This document shows positions 12,614 to 18,060 of a DNA stretch of 64,000 nucleotides, piece after piece. The notes under the pieces are model-generated. The model did no database searches. It saw nothing but the letters and a program-made list of their open reading frames with translations, and had not been told where the DNA came from. How positions within the stretch are numbered: the stretch's first letter is position 1; the number at the start of each line of letters is the position of its first letter. The stretch comes from Rhodobacterales bacterium HTCC2255 (GTDB taxonomy: Bacteria; Pseudomonadota; Alphaproteobacteria; Rhodobacterales; Rhodobacteraceae), in assembly GCA_000153745.1 (NCBI GenBank), contig DS022282.1, positions 602,027 to 666,026 of the forward strand. The letters run 5' to 3'. A program made the translations under genes and the position numbers.

Positions 12614-13537
12614 TTATTTTATTGTAATAACGATTTTACCTTTAGCTCGTCCCTTTGCTAATACCTCAAAGGCTTTTGGTGCCTGCTTCATCGGGTATGT
12701 GCTATCAATGACAGTTTTAACAATGCCCTGACTTATTAATGTGGCAAGTTCTGTTAACATGTCTCCATCAGGAGACATGAAAAACCATTCAAAATTTATA
12801 CCATAATCTTTAGCAAGGTTTTCAGTATCCTGCCCTTTAATAGAAATTAATCTCCCACCTTTTTTTAAAACTTTAAAAGACTTGGTTAATGTATCACCAC
12901 CAATCGCATCTATAACTAAATCATAGTCAGATAACTCATTTTCAAATGACTGGGTTGTATAATCGATTACTAGATCAGCTCCCAAACTTTTTACTAAGTT
13001 GCTATTTTTTGAACTTGTAGTTGTGGTCACCATTGCTCCAAAATACTTAGCAATCTGGATAGCAAACGTACCTACTCCACCAGAACCTGCATGGATCAAG
13101 ACTTTATCACCTTTTTTAAGCTCACCTTTTGTGACTAAGGCCTGCCAAGCTGTAAGTCCGGCAAGTGGGACAGAAGCTGCATCTATATGGCTCATATTTT
13201 TAGGTTTAATTGCAAGCTCATTTTCATGGACACGCGCAAACTCAGCAATTGAGCCAGCATCTTCTTGATTTGGCCGAGCAAATACCTCATCACCAACTTT
13301 GACACTTCGAACGCCCTTACCAACTTCAACCACAGTACCTGATACATCATAGCCCATAATATGTGGAAAGCTGAGCTCCAACATTTGGTGCAAATACCCT
13401 GCATGAAGAATATTATCGATTGGATTGATGCTTGCAGCATGCACTTCAATTAGGACAGATCTATCTTTAAGTTCTGGCTTTGCGGCTTCAATAATTTCAA
13501 TATTTGAGTTATAATTTTGATAAGCTACGGCTTTCAT
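12614..13537 (-). CDS. zinc-independent quinone oxidoreductase / MDR-family NADPH reductase
   Basis: A 307-residue medium-chain reductase. The N-terminal GroES-like domain contains EVHAASINPIDN; the Rossmann motif HAGSGGVGTFAIQIAK lies near residue 150, and no structural or catalytic zinc cysteines are present, as in quinone oxidoreductases. The start at 13537 (MKAVAYQ) is chosen over an upstream in-frame ATG because AGGGAAA precedes it and homology begins there. It is divergent from a LysR regulator and upstream of hchA. The likely role is NADPH-dependent reduction of quinones or enals. Confidence 0.85.
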   Translation of the reverse strand: MKAVAYQNYNSNIEIIEAAKPELKDRSVLIEVHAASINPIDNILHAGYLHQMLELSFPHIMGYDVSGTVVEVGKGVRSVKVGDEVFARPNQEDAGSIAEFARVHENELAIKPKNMSHIDAASVPLAGLTAWQALVTKGELKKGDKVLIHAGSGGVGTFAIQIAKYFGAMVTTTTSSKNSNLVKSLGADLVIDYTTQSFENELSDYDLVIDAIGGDTLTKSFKVLKKGGRLISIKGQDTENLAKDYGINFEWFFMSPDGDMLTELATLISQGIVKTVIDSTYPMKQAPKAFEVLAKGRAKGKIVITIK

Positions 13538-13657
13538 GAGGCTTTCCCTAGAATTTTGATAATTGTTATACAAACATAAATTTATAAATAAATATGGACA
13601 ATACATCATTTTTTAATAATACTATTGCCATATAGACAATAATAAAAGCTTTGCATT

Positions 13658-14578
13658 ATGGATCAACTGCGCGCACTTCGCTACTTTTCAAAATTAGCAG
13701 AAACACTAAGTTTTAGCGAAACTGCTGACTATTTCCGCGTACCTTCATCCTCAGTATCGCGACGGATAAAAGATTTAGAAGAAACCCTTGGAGTTGAATT
13801 ATTTTTGCGAACAACACGATCTGTCAGCCTAACTGATCTAGGAATACTTTATTTAGCTGAAATAAAAACTGCACTTCAAACTATCGAGATCGCTGACGAA
13901 ATGTGTAAAGCACAGTCTGTATCACCATCTGGTACTGTTAGAATTACTGCAATGCCAGGTTATGCTGAGCTTTATGTGCTTCCCGCAATAGATCGAATGA
14001 GAGCTCTATATCCAGATTTGGAATTTGATTTAAACGTTACAGATCAGATGCTAAACCTATCTAACAACGACGCAGACATAGCAATCAGAGCTACATCAGA
14101 TTTGCCTGACCAAGTCGTTGCTCGCCAATTAAATAAACACAACTTCATTTTGGTAGCTGCACCTGATTTTATAAATAAAAATGGAAGTCCACAAACGTCT
14201 GATGATCTAAACAAATTTCCTGTTTTTATGTACCGTACGCCTCGCGGTGTATTAAATTGGCAGGCACAAAAAAACCAAATATGGAAAGATATAGAGCTGA
14301 CACCAAAATATGTCACTAATCATGGTCCATCACTTTTAGAAAGCGTTGTCGAGGGACGAGGAATAGCTCTTCTACCAAGCTGGGGAGTTGCAAAAGAAAT
14401 AGCCGCAGGAGAATTGCAAAAAGTTGCGCTTCAAGATGGTAGGCTATCAACTAATGGTGATGTAGAGATGAGCATATATCTACTTTATCACCCTCCAAAA
14501 TTTCAGTTAAAAAAAATAAAATTAACTGTTGATTTTCTTTATAGAGAATTAAAACTGCAAGATGAAATTATTGCCTGA
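13658..14578 (+). CDS. LysR-family transcriptional regulator
   Basis: A 306-residue LysR protein: the winged HTH at residues 1-60 (LRYFSKLAETLSFSETADYF..SSSVSRRIKDLE) is followed by a periplasmic-binding-protein-like effector domain with RITAMPGYAELYVLPAI and a GRGIALLPSWGV C-terminal motif. It is divergent from the quinone reductase gene with 120 bases between, the usual LysR layout, and so probably controls the quinone reductase and hchA genes. Its stop codon lies 35 bases before repeat A1. Confidence 0.87.
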   Translation: MDQLRALRYFSKLAETLSFSETADYFRVPSSSVSRRIKDLEETLGVELFLRTTRSVSLTDLGILYLAEIKTALQTIEIADEMCKAQSVSPSGTVRITAMPGYAELYVLPAIDRMRALYPDLEFDLNVTDQMLNLSNNDADIAIRATSDLPDQVVARQLNKHNFILVAAPDFINKNGSPQTSDDLNKFPVFMYRTPRGVLNWQAQKNQIWKDIELTPKYVTNHGPSLLESVVEGRGIALLPSWGVAKEIAAGELQKVALQDGRLSTNGDVEMSIYLLYHPPKFQLKKIKLTVDFLYRELKLQDEIIA

Positions 14579-14865: not shown

Positions 14866-16410
14866 TTAACGCATAACACCTGCAAATTTTATTCCGCTTA
14901 ATTCCGCCATCTCGCGCTTCCAAGTAGTAATATCTTTATAGTTAAAATCTGATAAATTTTTATGTCCACATGCACGAGCTAAAACCTGCATTAATTCAAC
15001 GCTGGCTTCAAAGTAACGTGCCAATTTCTCTGAGCCTATTTGAACATCCAACATTTTGCGAAGTTCTGGCTTTTGTGTTGCAACTCCAACGGGACAATTA
15101 TTTGAATTACACATTCTAGCTGCAATGCAACCAACTGCTTGCATTGCAGAGTTTGAAACTGCAATCGCATCAGCCCCTAATGCCATAGCTTTTGAAAAAT
15201 CTTCTGCCACACGCAAACCACCTGTTATGATTAAAGTGACATCATTTCCAACTCTATTATTTAAATGCTTTCTAGCTCTCGCAAGAGCTGGAATGGTTGG
15301 AACCGAAATATGATCTCGAAATATTAATGGAGCAGCGCCGGTACCCCCTCCACGACCATCTAAAATTATATAATCTGCACTGGCTTCTAAAGCAAAATCA
15401 ATATCATCTTCGATATGATTAGCAGAAAGTTTAAATCCAATTGGGATGCCACCTGAACGTTCTCGCACTTCATCCGCTACTCTTTTAAAATCGGTAGGTG
15501 TATTAAGGTCAATAAATGACGCAGGTGAAATTGCGTCTTGCCCCTCTACTAGACCACGTACTTGAGCAATTTTACCTTGAACCTTTTCACCTGGCAAATG
15601 CCCACCTGTGCCAGTTTTGGCACCCTGCCCTCCCTTAAAATGAAATGCCTGAACCTTTTCAACCAGTTCTGGATTCCACCCAAATTGCGCTGAAGCAAGT
15701 TCATAGAAATATTTTGAGTTTTCATTTTGTTCTTCAGGAAGCATTCCACCTTCACCTGAACAAATACCAGTACCGGCTAATTCTGCTCCTCGTGCTAATG
15801 CAATTTTTGCTTCTTCAGATAATGCTCCATAACTCATATCAGATACAAAAAGTGGAATGTCTAATTTCAATGGTTTGATTGCTTTAGGCCCAATAACTAC
15901 TTTTGTTTCTACTCGGATATCATCTTGAAGAGGTTTACGTGCCATTTGAGCTGGTAAAATTTGAATATCATCCCAATGTGGTAAATCTTTACGAGGCACG
16001 CCCATTGAACCCATTTCCCCATGGTGACCAACTTTGGAAAGCCCATTTTTTGCCAGCTCATGAATTCGAGCAACAGTAGGTTCTTCTGGGGTTGGAGATG
16101 CTACGGGAATATCAGTTTTTATCGTTGGAGTTTGATCGCCAACATTGAGATTACCCAAACCAGCATGTGCCCCGTCACAAAAAGGTGCATTTGCACTAGC
16201 TTTGCATTGACATAGTGCTTTTGCGCCCGTCTCTTCGACTGAGAACTTCATTGGAGAAATGTCAGTTCCAATATGAGATCCATCACAAAATGGTTGCTTT
16301 TGTGATTTTCCACAACGGCACCAAAAATAATTTTTACCAGACTCCAAGTCTACTTTAATTGGTTTCTTATCTGCAATTATGGGAATTGATTTAGACATAT
16401 CTTTAATCAT
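14866..16410 (-). CDS. CDGSH-domain / glutamate synthase (FMN) domain fusion protein
   Basis: A 514-residue fusion. The N-terminus holds two CDGSH iron-sulfur motifs: C31-C33-C42-H46 (CRCGKSQKQPFCDGSH) and C67-C69-C78-H82 (CQCKASANAPFCDGAH). From about residue 150 it is a glutamate synthase central/FMN-type TIM barrel, with MSYGALSEEAKIALA, GTGICSGEGGMLPEE, GGQGAKTGTGG and ILDGRGGGTGAAP. It lacks the glutaminase domain, so it is a GltB-domain-2-like oxidoreductase rather than full GOGAT. The start overlaps the DoxX gene stop as TAATG; a second ATG four codons in is possible. The product is probably a cytoplasmic redox enzyme fed by [2Fe-2S] clusters. Its reaction is not established. Confidence 0.83.
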   Translation of the reverse strand: MIKDMSKSIPIIADKKPIKVDLESGKNYFWCRCGKSQKQPFCDGSHIGTDISPMKFSVEETGAKALCQCKASANAPFCDGAHAGLGNLNVGDQTPTIKTDIPVASPTPEEPTVARIHELAKNGLSKVGHHGEMGSMGVPRKDLPHWDDIQILPAQMARKPLQDDIRVETKVVIGPKAIKPLKLDIPLFVSDMSYGALSEEAKIALARGAELAGTGICSGEGGMLPEEQNENSKYFYELASAQFGWNPELVEKVQAFHFKGGQGAKTGTGGHLPGEKVQGKIAQVRGLVEGQDAISPASFIDLNTPTDFKRVADEVRERSGGIPIGFKLSANHIEDDIDFALEASADYIILDGRGGGTGAAPLIFRDHISVPTIPALARARKHLNNRVGNDVTLIITGGLRVAEDFSKAMALGADAIAVSNSAMQAVGCIAARMCNSNNCPVGVATQKPELRKMLDVQIGSEKLARYFEASVELMQVLARACGHKNLSDFNYKDITTWKREMAELSGIKFAGVMR

Positions 16411-16787
16411 TATAATTTAGCTTGAGAAAAATTTGCAAGTCCCAAAATTTCTGGAATTTCGGCGCGGTAAATATATAAAACTGCTGAACACAAGAGGCCT
16501 AGTACCATAGCGGGGACTGCGGATGGACCAAGAATAAACCAATGGGTCAGGACGGCACCTAGCATAGTGCCCCCTAGAACTGCTGCACCGATGACCTGAC
16601 GCCGTGGCAGCCACAGCAGTGCAACTCCTATTACCTCAATAGTCCCTGTCAGATAACGGAAGCCTTGCCCCCAGCCTATTTGATCAAACGTCATCACCAT
16701 CATATCGACACCGGCGAGCTTTGCACCTCCTGCACCCAAAAAGGCAATTGAAAGTAAAATTCGAAGTCCAACTGAGATATAAGTCAT
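16410..16787 (-). CDS. DoxX-family small membrane protein
   Basis: A 125-residue protein with four hydrophobic helices. The first helix carries LLSIAFLGAGGAKLAG, the hallmark start of DoxX/SURF4-type proteins, and the central part has the Y-LTGTIEVIGVALLWLP segment. DoxX proteins are thought to be small subunits of quinone-linked or thiol redox systems in the inner membrane. It lies between the CDGSH micro-protein gene (163 bases upstream) and the CDGSH-glutamate synthase fusion (overlapping), which suggests an electron-transfer module. Confidence 0.8.
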   Translation of the reverse strand: MTYISVGLRILLSIAFLGAGGAKLAGVDMMVMTFDQIGWGQGFRYLTGTIEVIGVALLWLPRRQVIGAAVLGGTMLGAVLTHWFILGPSAVPAMVLGLLCSAVLYIYRAEIPEILGLANFSQAKL

Positions 16788-16950
16788 TATTTTCCTATCT
16801 TAAATTTCTATCTTATTTGTTAAATGCTTTGCATGATTAGTTTCTTGCGTTCGTCCAAGCCAAATTAATCGCTAACGTTTGAAGCTCGAGACTATTCGAA
16901 GCATTGGCTGGGTGGCTGCCATTGCACAGTCACCCAGCAATTATTCATTT

Positions 16951-17082
16951 TCAAGATTTTTGAGCCTGACGCGCTTCATAGGCAGTTTTCTTTTCTTGAT
17001 ACTCTTCCTCAGAGAGAGCATGCCACCCAATACAGTTGCCTGTTGGGGAACGGCCACATCCACATTTTGGTGATTCAGTCAT
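16951..17082 (-). CDS. 43-residue CDGSH-like micro-protein
   Basis: A 43-codon gene with a strong ribosome-binding site (AAAGGAG eight bases before ATG). The product contains C7-x-C9, S12, C17 and H21 in KCGCGRSPTGNCIGWHAL, close to a CDGSH [2Fe-2S] ligand pattern (C-x-C-x2-S...C-x3-H) but one residue shorter between S and the third Cys and with CIGWH in place of CDGSH. A charged helix (EEEYQEKKTAYEARQAQ) follows. It shares strand and neighbourhood with the DoxX gene and the CDGSH fusion enzyme. Probably a small iron-sulfur or zinc protein serving that system; metal identity is inference. Confidence 0.7.
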   Translation of the reverse strand: MTESPKCGCGRSPTGNCIGWHALSEEEYQEKKTAYEARQAQKS

Positions 17083-17187
17083 TTTTATAACTCCTTTTTT
17101 TGCTTGCCCCTAACTATGCATTGCATCATTACTAGACACAATGAGCGTATATGCACATAAAGTGCGCGTAAAATAGGTATAACTAAT

Positions 17188-18060
17188 ATGGACAAATGGG
17201 CTGAGCTTCGAACAGCATACCAAGTGGCAAAGCTTGGCACTGTAAGTGCAGCGGCAACTGCACTTGGTTTCCACCGCGCGACTGTGAACCGTCACATCGA
17301 CGTGCTTGAGGAAGAGATGGGGGCCCGTATCTTTATCCGGCATGCACGGGGTTATACGCTTACAGAGTTAGGTGAAGATGTACTTCGGGTTGCACAAAAG
17401 ACGGAAGAACTTATTGAAGATTTAGCGGGCCGCGTGGAGGGAGGAAAAGATACGCTCGAAGGTGAGCTAAAGCTGACAATTCTAGCAGGTTTTGCCGAGC
17501 TAATTATGAAACCAATCTTAAATTTTAGAGCAGAAAATCCAAATTGTATTGTACATCTTGATGCTGGTGAAAACCTCGCGCGACTTGAATATGGTGAAGC
17601 ACATATTGCATTGCGTGCTGGTCCAAAACCAGATCATCCTGATTACGTTGTTAGTAAATTTGCGCAGATCAACTTTAACCTTTACGCCCACCAAAGCTAT
17701 ATCCAAAGGTTTGGGATGCCAAAAGATACTGATGACTTTGATAACCATCAGTTTGTCCTACCACCAAAATTTGGAGGAAATCTCTCAGTCCGAGAATGGA
17801 TACAAAACATTATACGCCCTGATATGATTGCGTTGTCGACCCAACACGTAAATGTCAACTTTAAGGCCGTTTTAGCCGGAATAGGTATTGGTTTTATAGA
17901 AGATTATAAAGCAAAAATGTTTGGTGGGTTTCACCGTGTTCTTGCCCCAAATCAGGAGTGGTCAGTACCAATCTGGCTGGTCACACATGTTGACCTCCAC
18001 CGTACAGCAAAAGTTCAAGCGATGCTAAGGTGCATAAAGTCTGCTCGTCAGGAAGAATGA
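17188..18060 (+). CDS. LysR-family transcriptional regulator
   Basis: A 290-residue LysR protein: the HTH (AYQVAKLGTVSAAATALGFHRATVNRHID) covers residues 9-37 and the effector domain contains LTILAGFAELIMKPIL. It is divergent from the 43-residue CDGSH-like gene with about 105 bases between, so it probably controls that gene, the DoxX gene and the fusion enzyme. The N-terminal half is visibly richer in GC than most of the window. Its 3' end lies 24 bases before the first recognisable element of repeat A2. Confidence 0.85.
   Translation: MDKWAELRTAYQVAKLGTVSAAATALGFHRATVNRHIDVLEEEMGARIFIRHARGYTLTELGEDVLRVAQKTEELIEDLAGRVEGGKDTLEGELKLTILAGFAELIMKPILNFRAENPNCIVHLDAGENLARLEYGEAHIALRAGPKPDHPDYVVSKFAQINFNLYAHQSYIQRFGMPKDTDDFDNHQFVLPPKFGGNLSVREWIQNIIRPDMIALSTQHVNVNFKAVLAGIGIGFIEDYKAKMFGGFHRVLAPNQEWSVPIWLVTHVDLHRTAKVQAMLRCIKSARQEE

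Follow-up and report, generated by a model that had tools for sequence, protein, structure and literature searches.

The window analyzed here is a stretch of 64,000 nucleotides of Rhodobacterales bacterium HTCC2255 (contig DS022282.1, positions 602,027 to 666,026 of the forward strand). It contains a gene for a protein of only 43 amino acids with the pattern CxC-x7-C-x3-H, and this microprotein was found to belong to a family that exists and is conserved in bacteria, largely of marine groups according to the record titles, as well as in viral contigs. The gene had been singled out in an earlier note on this DNA, and the observation was confirmed as stated: C7, C9, C17 and H21 are the candidate ligands (C7-x-C9-x7-C17-x3-H21), and the ribosome-binding site is indeed good, with AGGAG 8 nt ahead of the ATG. 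The microprotein was regarded as the most interesting part of the locus, and the neighboring genes are of known kinds. It is tentatively proposed, with somewhat less than even confidence, that it is an inducible microprotein with a 3Cys-1His metal site, carrying zinc or an iron-sulfur (Fe-S) cluster, for oxidant or quinone stress.

The Microprotein Family Is Real and Widespread

The open reading frame (ORF) is not a product of chance, because a second copy is present in the same genome, 70 loci in named genomes encode relatives, and the codon differences are mostly synonymous. The second copy (G000:C1:580886; genome and locus identifiers are our own) is 68% identical and is flanked, as judged by eye, by copC/copD-like genes and a dimethylamine-dehydrogenase-like gene. 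Comparison with six close relatives over 40 codons each revealed 39 synonymous and 18 nonsynonymous differences in total (L017 1/0, L018 4/1, L020 4/2, L022 5/4, L023 12/6, L025 13/5).

A search with the single sequence identified the gene in 4 of 101 genomes. Profile searches retrieved it from 4 of 33 genomes at the genus level, 6 of 385 at the class level and 2 of 398 at the phylum level, the other phylum-level match probably being a chance match; all these counts include the genome of HTCC2255 itself. In the order of G301 it was present in 24 of 32 genomes and looks like a core gene. According to the record titles, the carriers comprise the Rhodobacteraceae Amylibacter, Ascidiaceihabitans, Planktomarina and HIMB11 and, outside of this family, SAR116, SAR86, SAR92, Luminiphilus, Woeseiaceae, the Methylophilales HTCC2181 and KB13 and some lake bins. 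The labels of a few contigs read Bacteroidetes, Flavobacteriaceae, Verrucomicrobia or Euryarchaeota, possibly through binning errors.

The core of the family is C-x-C-G-R-S-P-T-G-x-C-x-G-W-H-x-L-[ST]-E, and most members have 40–80 amino acids. When 81 bacterial and viral members were aligned, C7, C9, R11, S12, P13, G15, C17, G19, W20 and H21 were invariant; this conservation is overestimated, as the members had been collected with patterns drawn from the core motif. L016 (E 5e-4) has no frame with the motif and was treated as a chance match, the weak copy L008 was left out of the alignments, and the about 40 alignable columns are too few for a tree of bacterial versus viral members. The earlier note had regarded a lack of conservation of the small gene as fatal to its claim; the gene turned out to be conserved in named genomes and in viral contigs alike.

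Pfam, NCBIfam and PHROGs yielded no convincing match to the family (best PHROG 0.0031, in 1 of 81 members), and sequence searches of the PDB returned weak matches only, i.e., a CRISPR protein at 2.1 (alignment A1) and a chromatin protein at 0.21 (alignment A4, 81 members). The CGRSPTG motif was not found in the literature searched; a catalogue of small proteins (PMC11364881) and a review of small phage proteins (PMC11323111) may contain the family. Literature searches on CDGSH, small proteins and marine phages, on CDGSH, DoxX and glutamate synthase, and on small proteins of SAR11 and SAR86 revealed no description of it. The microprotein is thus encoded in several marine lineages and hundreds of viral contigs, yet none of the libraries searched annotates it usefully. 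Gene finders easily overlook small metal proteins.

Relatives in Viral Contigs

A profile search of IMG/VR showed that at least 582 stretches encode a relative among the 600 matches listed, a second query yielded 243 of 258 stretches, and each of two DNA patterns had at least 120 viral matches. In total 380 viral loci were collected, of which 276 were distinct by the motif test. Searches of cultured phages with three tblastn queries gave no match in 50,697 phage records, and no tblastn match was found in 72,556 plasmid records. The absence from cultured phages is not simply a failure of short queries, because a neighboring gene of 66 amino acids, used as positive control, matched 158 phage records.

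Many viral loci have a recurrent set of neighbors, for which five marker genes were defined (queE, folE, phosphoribosyltransferase, HIT-like and RNase H). Representatives of the marker neighbors received the PHROGs names QueE-like radical SAM, GTP cyclohydrolase, exonuclease and phosphoribosyl transferase. In a smaller set of 239 viral loci, 174 were distinct, 94 with and 80 without markers; L408–L447 are missing from the marker and cluster counts of this set and are included in the 276-locus, tail and fusion counts. Judged from the gene block alone, the marker-bearing loci are probably Far-T4-like, because phages of Far-T4 clade 1 have the same queuosine-block genes: queuosine genes are described for them, and a figure legend names GTP cyclohydrolase and phosphoribosyl transferase (PMC4360716).

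Several viral members have additional features. A second conserved tail of the form LW-x-DSCTSGRAE is present in many viral microproteins (L249–L328), and among 351 distinct core-plus-tail peptides 74 have such a tail with CT[STGA]. One viral contig contains tandem genes (L259:3001-3400), the second with GLH instead of GWH. If the microprotein was a redox or cluster protein, aquatic phages and bacteria from the same waters would have an auxiliary gene in common, and its product would be one of the smallest proteins of this kind.

Redox and Fe-S Genes Are Repeatedly Found Next to the Microprotein

On viral contigs the company of redox and Fe-S genes is recurrent. The microprotein gene of L379 is situated between an Fe-S assembly gene (FeS_assembly_P, PF01883) and a ferredoxin gene. 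In L399 (2106-6748) it directly follows a B12-type ribonucleotide reductase and precedes NifU, Fe-S_biosyn and NifU_N genes. A peroxiredoxin gene is near the microprotein in L377, and a small chain of ribonucleotide reductase was recognized by eye in L111. Of the 80 marker-free viral loci, 5 have a cluster of carboxymuconolactone decarboxylases (AhpD-like by eye) near the microprotein and 4 an AhpC-like one. Several Fe-S assembly parts are thus located on one presumed phage contig, L399.

The same-strand neighbors in marker-free loci were divided into a near set (150 of 168 cluster representatives) and a far set (131). Iron and redox families lead the Pfam list of the near set and not that of the far set. 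Members of the near set were 2OG-FeII_Oxy_3 (4), Pyr_redox_2, Redoxin, AhpC-TSA, Radical_SAM and SPASM (2 each) as well as Sod_Cu and Ribonuc_red_sm (1 each), whereby some pairs are possibly the same proteins. In the far set NifU_N was the sole Fe-S family among the families listed (25 of 119).

In 19 of 80 homologue loci a radical-SAM protein has the microprotein as its C-terminus (15 with GWH, 4 with GMH; the strict motif recovers 15 fusions and a looser test 19). Examples of the fusion are L375:2139-3311, L448–L461 and L472–L476. In addition, one of the 81 aligned members matched DUF1674 at 1e-11, a family that we take to be SDHAF4. This member is most likely L149, as judged by its tail; the microprotein encoded at L149:3995-4183 has an SDHAF4/DUF1674-like tail, GGPKGAEPTRYDTWESKGREIDF.

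A LysR-Type Regulator and a Conserved Control Region Precede a Variable Cassette

For the bacterial copies a window-type class of 20 loci was picked by peptide, which was the analyst's choice. A LysR gene lies beside the microprotein gene in 15 of them, divergently in 13 and in the same direction in two (L018, L034). Along with this linkage, which holds for most of the subfamily, the control region is conserved: the intergenic region of 8 window-type loci has a mean column identity of 79%. In the window it contains the quasi-palindrome TACGCGCA-N5-TGTGCATA. The region is also kept in L024, whose contig stretch yielded no LysR gene. A longer operator pattern, with up to 3 mismatches allowed, occurred once in the genome of HTCC2255 (G000) and once in G002, and the control yielded 0 matches. 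Because it is single in both genomes, LysR is more likely to be a local regulator, as far as the pattern can tell. A wide LysR regulon was rejected on the same count of one pattern per genome in the two genomes searched. The window contains one more match, at 13115, which with its 3 mismatches is close to what chance would give. The flanking LysR proteins are of at least three types by eye, and other loci combine a different LysR type with an AT-rich and less conserved region (69% in six sequences, two of which are nearly identical), which indicates that unlike regulators precede the same small gene.

The genes of the cassette were searched with tblastn in 17 of the 20 window-type loci; the three left out, L041, L047 and L050, lack a LysR gene. 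A DoxX sequence was found in 11 loci, in some of them as a remnant, the fusion of CDGSH motifs and glutamate synthase (CDGSH-GltS) in 7, and a YqjG-like glutathione S-transferase (GST) in 7, while 10 loci had no match to CDGSH-GltS. The number of independent loci is smaller, since one contig carries both L029 and L030, from which L031 hardly differs. In the PDB, the best match to the L017 GST is E. coli YqjG (3r3e, E 5e-135). Further downstream genes encode YceI, cytochrome b561, pirin, DUF3764 and FMN reductase; in L026 and L029–L031 cytochrome b561 is present and a DoxX match is missing. A DoxX gene also adjoins the microprotein gene outside of the window type, in L063 (by Pfam) and L069 (by cluster). 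Outside of the window the trio of microprotein, DoxX and CDGSH-GltS was recovered in only 4 of 17 loci (L017–L020), with DoxX partly displaced or remnant. The LysR linkage and the redox genes that follow were thus borne out, but the three genes whose co-occurrence the earlier note had suggested to check are not a fixed unit.

Organization of the Locus in the Window

The features of the locus are compiled in Table 1. The neighbors had been named correctly before: positions and Pfam matches agree with a DoxX membrane protein, an FMN oxidoreductase with two CDGSH motifs and a divergent LysR gene. The DoxX assignment is above the family cut-offs (DoxX 30.0 bits with a cut-off of 23.6, DoxX_2 51.7 bits with a cut-off of 26.3).

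Table 1. Features of the microprotein locus (positions in the window).
Feature	Position	Strand	Evidence
Microprotein (43 aa, CxC-x7-C-x3-H)	16951-17082	minus	ATG start; ORF list
Shine-Dalgarno sequence AGGAG of the microprotein gene	17091-17095	minus	read from sequence; invariant in 8-locus intergenic alignment
DoxX-family membrane protein, 125 aa	16410-16787	minus	Pfam DoxX_2 1e-13, DoxX 8e-7
CDGSH-GltS (type 5 CISD), 514 aa	14866-16410	minus	Glu_synthase 2.6e-92; zf-CDGSH 1.1e-20, 2 stretches
First CDGSH motif CRCGKSQKQPFCDGSH	16273-16320	minus	read from translation
Second CDGSH motif CQCKASANAPFCDGAH	16165-16212	minus	read from translation
LysR-type regulator gene, divergent from the microprotein gene	17188-18060	plus	ORF; Pfam HTH_1 and LysR_substrate
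Putative LysR operator TTTACGCGCACTTTATGTGCATA, intergenic	17150-17172	minus	8-locus alignment
Stable hairpin 3′ of the microprotein gene, without T run in this direction	16907-16938	minus	folding and shuffles

The reading frames of DoxX and CDGSH-GltS share one base. The idea of three genes under one promoter has to be corrected: a gap of 163 nt with a stable hairpin separates the microprotein gene from DoxX (-21.3 kcal/mol, z -3.5; 0 of 200 shuffles fold as well). The hairpin is alike in L017, L018, L021 and L022 and not in L020 or L024. The microprotein and DoxX genes are likely co-transcribed, and the hairpin, which lacks a T run when read in the transcribed direction, may be an attenuation or processing site of the transcript. 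Close by, another divergent pair of a LysR gene and a zinc-binding dehydrogenase gene is present at 12614-14578.

In the 514-amino-acid neighbor two CDGSH motifs are followed by a glutamate synthase FMN domain, and a PDB search matched 3tbn and glutamate synthases. Among 100 genomes of the family, glutamate-synthase-like matches with an E value of 1e-80 or lower were obtained in 21, including that of HTCC2255. The CDGSH part was included in 7 of these matches, from 6 other genomes, and these 7 loci (about 4.5 kb each) contained no DoxX match and no microprotein motif. YqjG-like or related GST genes adjoin CDGSH-GltS in four of the 7 (L631, L633, L634, L635). In L631 and L635, which have no microprotein within 4.5 kb, CDGSH-GltS is accompanied by YqjG-like GST genes and an ORF that looks like hemerythrin by eye.

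Structure, Remote Similarities and Alternative Explanations

The AlphaFold2 monomer of the microprotein (mean pLDDT 87.0, pTM 0.54) has a helix at residues 25–42, a one-residue bridge (6/16) and no beta strand of at least 3 residues. A Foldseek search of the model against the PDB gave no matching chain. A fold search of BFVD retrieved five proteins of uncultured Caudovirales at E below 5e-3, all of which are uncharacterised.

The one bridge and one helix of the model are consistent with a zinc knuckle, in which a structural zinc ion would sit at the 3Cys-1His site, the helix would bind a partner, e.g., RNA polymerase, and the link to redox genes would be regulatory or accidental. A single CCCH site and a helix in about 40 residues suit zinc, and small phage takeover proteins bind partners such as RNA polymerase. 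Many copies of the microprotein gene have no redox company, and a gene resembling RNA polymerase omega recurs near it in phages (see below). This explanation, a serious possibility and yet a doubtful one, is weakened by the fusion to a radical-SAM protein and by the genes for oxidant, Fe-S and quinone functions that accompany the microprotein in the LysR loci and in several phage contexts.

The remote similarities were analyzed with hhalign, and the highest score of 77 unrelated families, 16.3, served as a control. With DUF1289 the microprotein profile had a score of 18.9 (probability 27%), and no shuffle came up to it, whether full or with the ligands kept (200 of each). The score with CDGSH was 19.1, a value attained by 1 of 250 full column shuffles and by 17 of 250 that kept the four ligands (0 of 150 full shuffles in an earlier run). 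Mirrored profiles scored 13.5 and 9.6. The CDGSH signal stems from residues 6–29, and the DUF1289 signal requires the whole chain. Both likenesses are suggestive, and neither proves descent. The SEC-C zinc motif was rejected as an origin: its hhalign score of 13.3 is inside the range of 60 full shuffles (maximum 18.2), and its spacing differs, the motif presumably being CXCX8C[CH].

The DUF1289 score would fit a shortened relative of this family (E. coli YdhL) that shares the function of the family, an explanation that overlaps with the others. Against it stand the absolute score, which equals that of CDGSH, the mirrored profile, which still reaches 13.5, and the alignment itself, which covers C9-R-S, W20 and the helix and leaves the other cysteines out of register. 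Pfam matches to DUF1289 were weak and below the cut-off (5 of 81 members, best 0.016). They are no better than those of the surely unrelated BTRD1 and SHOCT, which also matched 5 of 81 members each (best 0.0089 and 0.033). In addition, the genome of HTCC2255 has a separate DUF1289 gene. Overall, this relationship seems rather unlikely.

The earlier note had read the microprotein as a minimal CDGSH-type [2Fe-2S] protein that connects quinones or thiols to the CDGSH-glutamate synthase by electron transfer. The resemblance of the motif, with a loop shorter by one residue, was upheld, and 8 of 15 motif positions equal those of bacterial CDGSH proteins such as CRCGRSKLQPHCDGSH. However, the CISD consensus C-X-C-X2-(S/T)-X3-P-X-C-D-G-(S/A/T)-H, as given in PMC5859297, does not describe the microprotein, which has C-X-C-X2-S-X4-C-X-G-W-H in 81 of 81 aligned rows, and DUF1289 fits about as well. 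With x7 instead of x8 spacing, no P before the third cysteine, no D after it, a W before the histidine, a PF09360 match in only 1 of 81 members (0.034), and a monomer model without strands of 3 or more residues or a Foldseek match where known CISD structures have a beta-sandwich (PMC3174974), this reading is very unlikely.

Proposed Function of the Microprotein

The preferred reading of an inducible metal-site protein for oxidant or quinone stress can be put together as follows. The core C-x-C-G-R-S-P-T-G-x-C-x-G-W-H would form a single 3Cys-1His metal site ahead of an amphipathic helix. LysR, sensing an oxidant, a quinone or another electrophile, would induce the microprotein first and most, and the hairpin would then dampen the downstream genes. 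The products of these genes, DoxX or cytochrome b561, a YqjG-like glutathionyl-hydroquinone reductase, pirin and the CDGSH-FMN protein, would deal with quinones and with flavin/Fe-S electron flow, and the microprotein as a small metal or cluster protein would protect, load or reduce oxidant-sensitive redox enzymes. For phages, the benefit of the gene would be that their own iron, Fe-S or radical enzymes stay functional. The metal site, the role in stress and the transfer of electrons or clusters are all inferred. A more specific version, which joins bacteria and phages, is less probable and must be called somewhat unlikely: the CGRSPTG-GWH microdomain would be a minimal Fe-S/iron redox factor, common to marine bacterioplankton and uncultured aquatic phages (probably Far-T4 and others), that supplies or protects radical-SAM enzymes, ribonucleotide reductase and other oxidant-sensitive enzymes, and that heads a LysR quinone/oxidant cassette in Rhodobacteraceae.

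Several observations weigh against these proposals. Five of the 20 window-type loci (L024, L028, L041, L047, L050) have no LysR gene beside the microprotein gene. The alphaproteobacterial L010, L011, L060 and L081, which are not far from the window type and outside of the class, have no LysR, DoxX, GltS or GST match in the stretch examined, and most bacterial copies outside of the window type are in varied contexts. At least one of the five markers was present in 126 of the 276 distinct viral loci, at least two in 120 and none in 150, and the company of marker genes may be inherited synteny. The comparison of near and far neighbors has small counts and is based on the 25 families listed of 134 (near) and of 119 (far). 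The fusion of radical-SAM protein and microprotein represents one closely related lineage, and in the 61 unfused homologue loci no microprotein was found in the stretch examined, which in one case ends at the contig end. Lastly, a cluster resembling RNA polymerase omega is near the microprotein in 13 of 80 marker-free viral loci and points to a role in transcription instead. An example of the omega-like gene is L405:9208-9435, with PF01192 assigned to the cluster representative.

The LysR locus offers an entry point to the function of the microprotein, since its promoter is a candidate for induction, the gene can be deleted and the stressors are defined.

Comparison with Known Systems

The microprotein shares with DUF1289 (PF06945, E. 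coli YdhL) the small size, the cysteines, the elements GC-x-R-[ST] and W-x-x-[LM]-S-x-x-E and a helix that follows. In contrast, DUF1289 has the pairs C-x3-C and C-x-G-C, while the microprotein has CxC, a third cysteine and an invariant histidine. Likewise, CxCGxS....CxGxH with three cysteines and one histidine is common to the microprotein and CISD/PF09360, but the loop of the microprotein is one residue shorter, it has no P, D or S/A/T at the places of the consensus, and it probably has no room for a beta-sandwich. Known CISD structures form such a sandwich with dual iron-sulfur modules, and even one of 53 residues has four strands (PMC3174974).

The LysR cassette resembles the YhaJ regulon of E. 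coli, and this likeness is one of gene types: several related loci combine a LysR gene with adjacent pirin, DoxX-type and YqjG-type genes. YqjF is presumably DoxX-like and located with YqjG. According to the accessible part of PMC5031710, the LysR-type regulator YhaJ regulates yqjF and its own divergent neighbor yhaK and is tied to quinol-like compounds; a gene like that of the microprotein is not named there. A screen lists both ydhL (DUF1289) and yhaJ among 27 candidate genes common to H2O2 and HOCl resistance (PMC8228696). No chain named YhaJ was among the PDB matches of the LysR protein of the window.

For the viral loci the nearest known system is the queuosine block of Far-T4 phages, as GTP cyclohydrolase, phosphoribosyltransferase and queuosine genes surround the microprotein gene in many of them; the part of the Far-T4 description at hand (PMC4360716) mentions no gene like it. 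The large neighbor in the window has an exact counterpart: type 5 CISD proteins, with tandem CDGSH motifs and a glutamate synthase FMN domain, had been described in 2011 (PMC3174974), and CDGSH-GltS has exactly the same architecture, with no notable difference.

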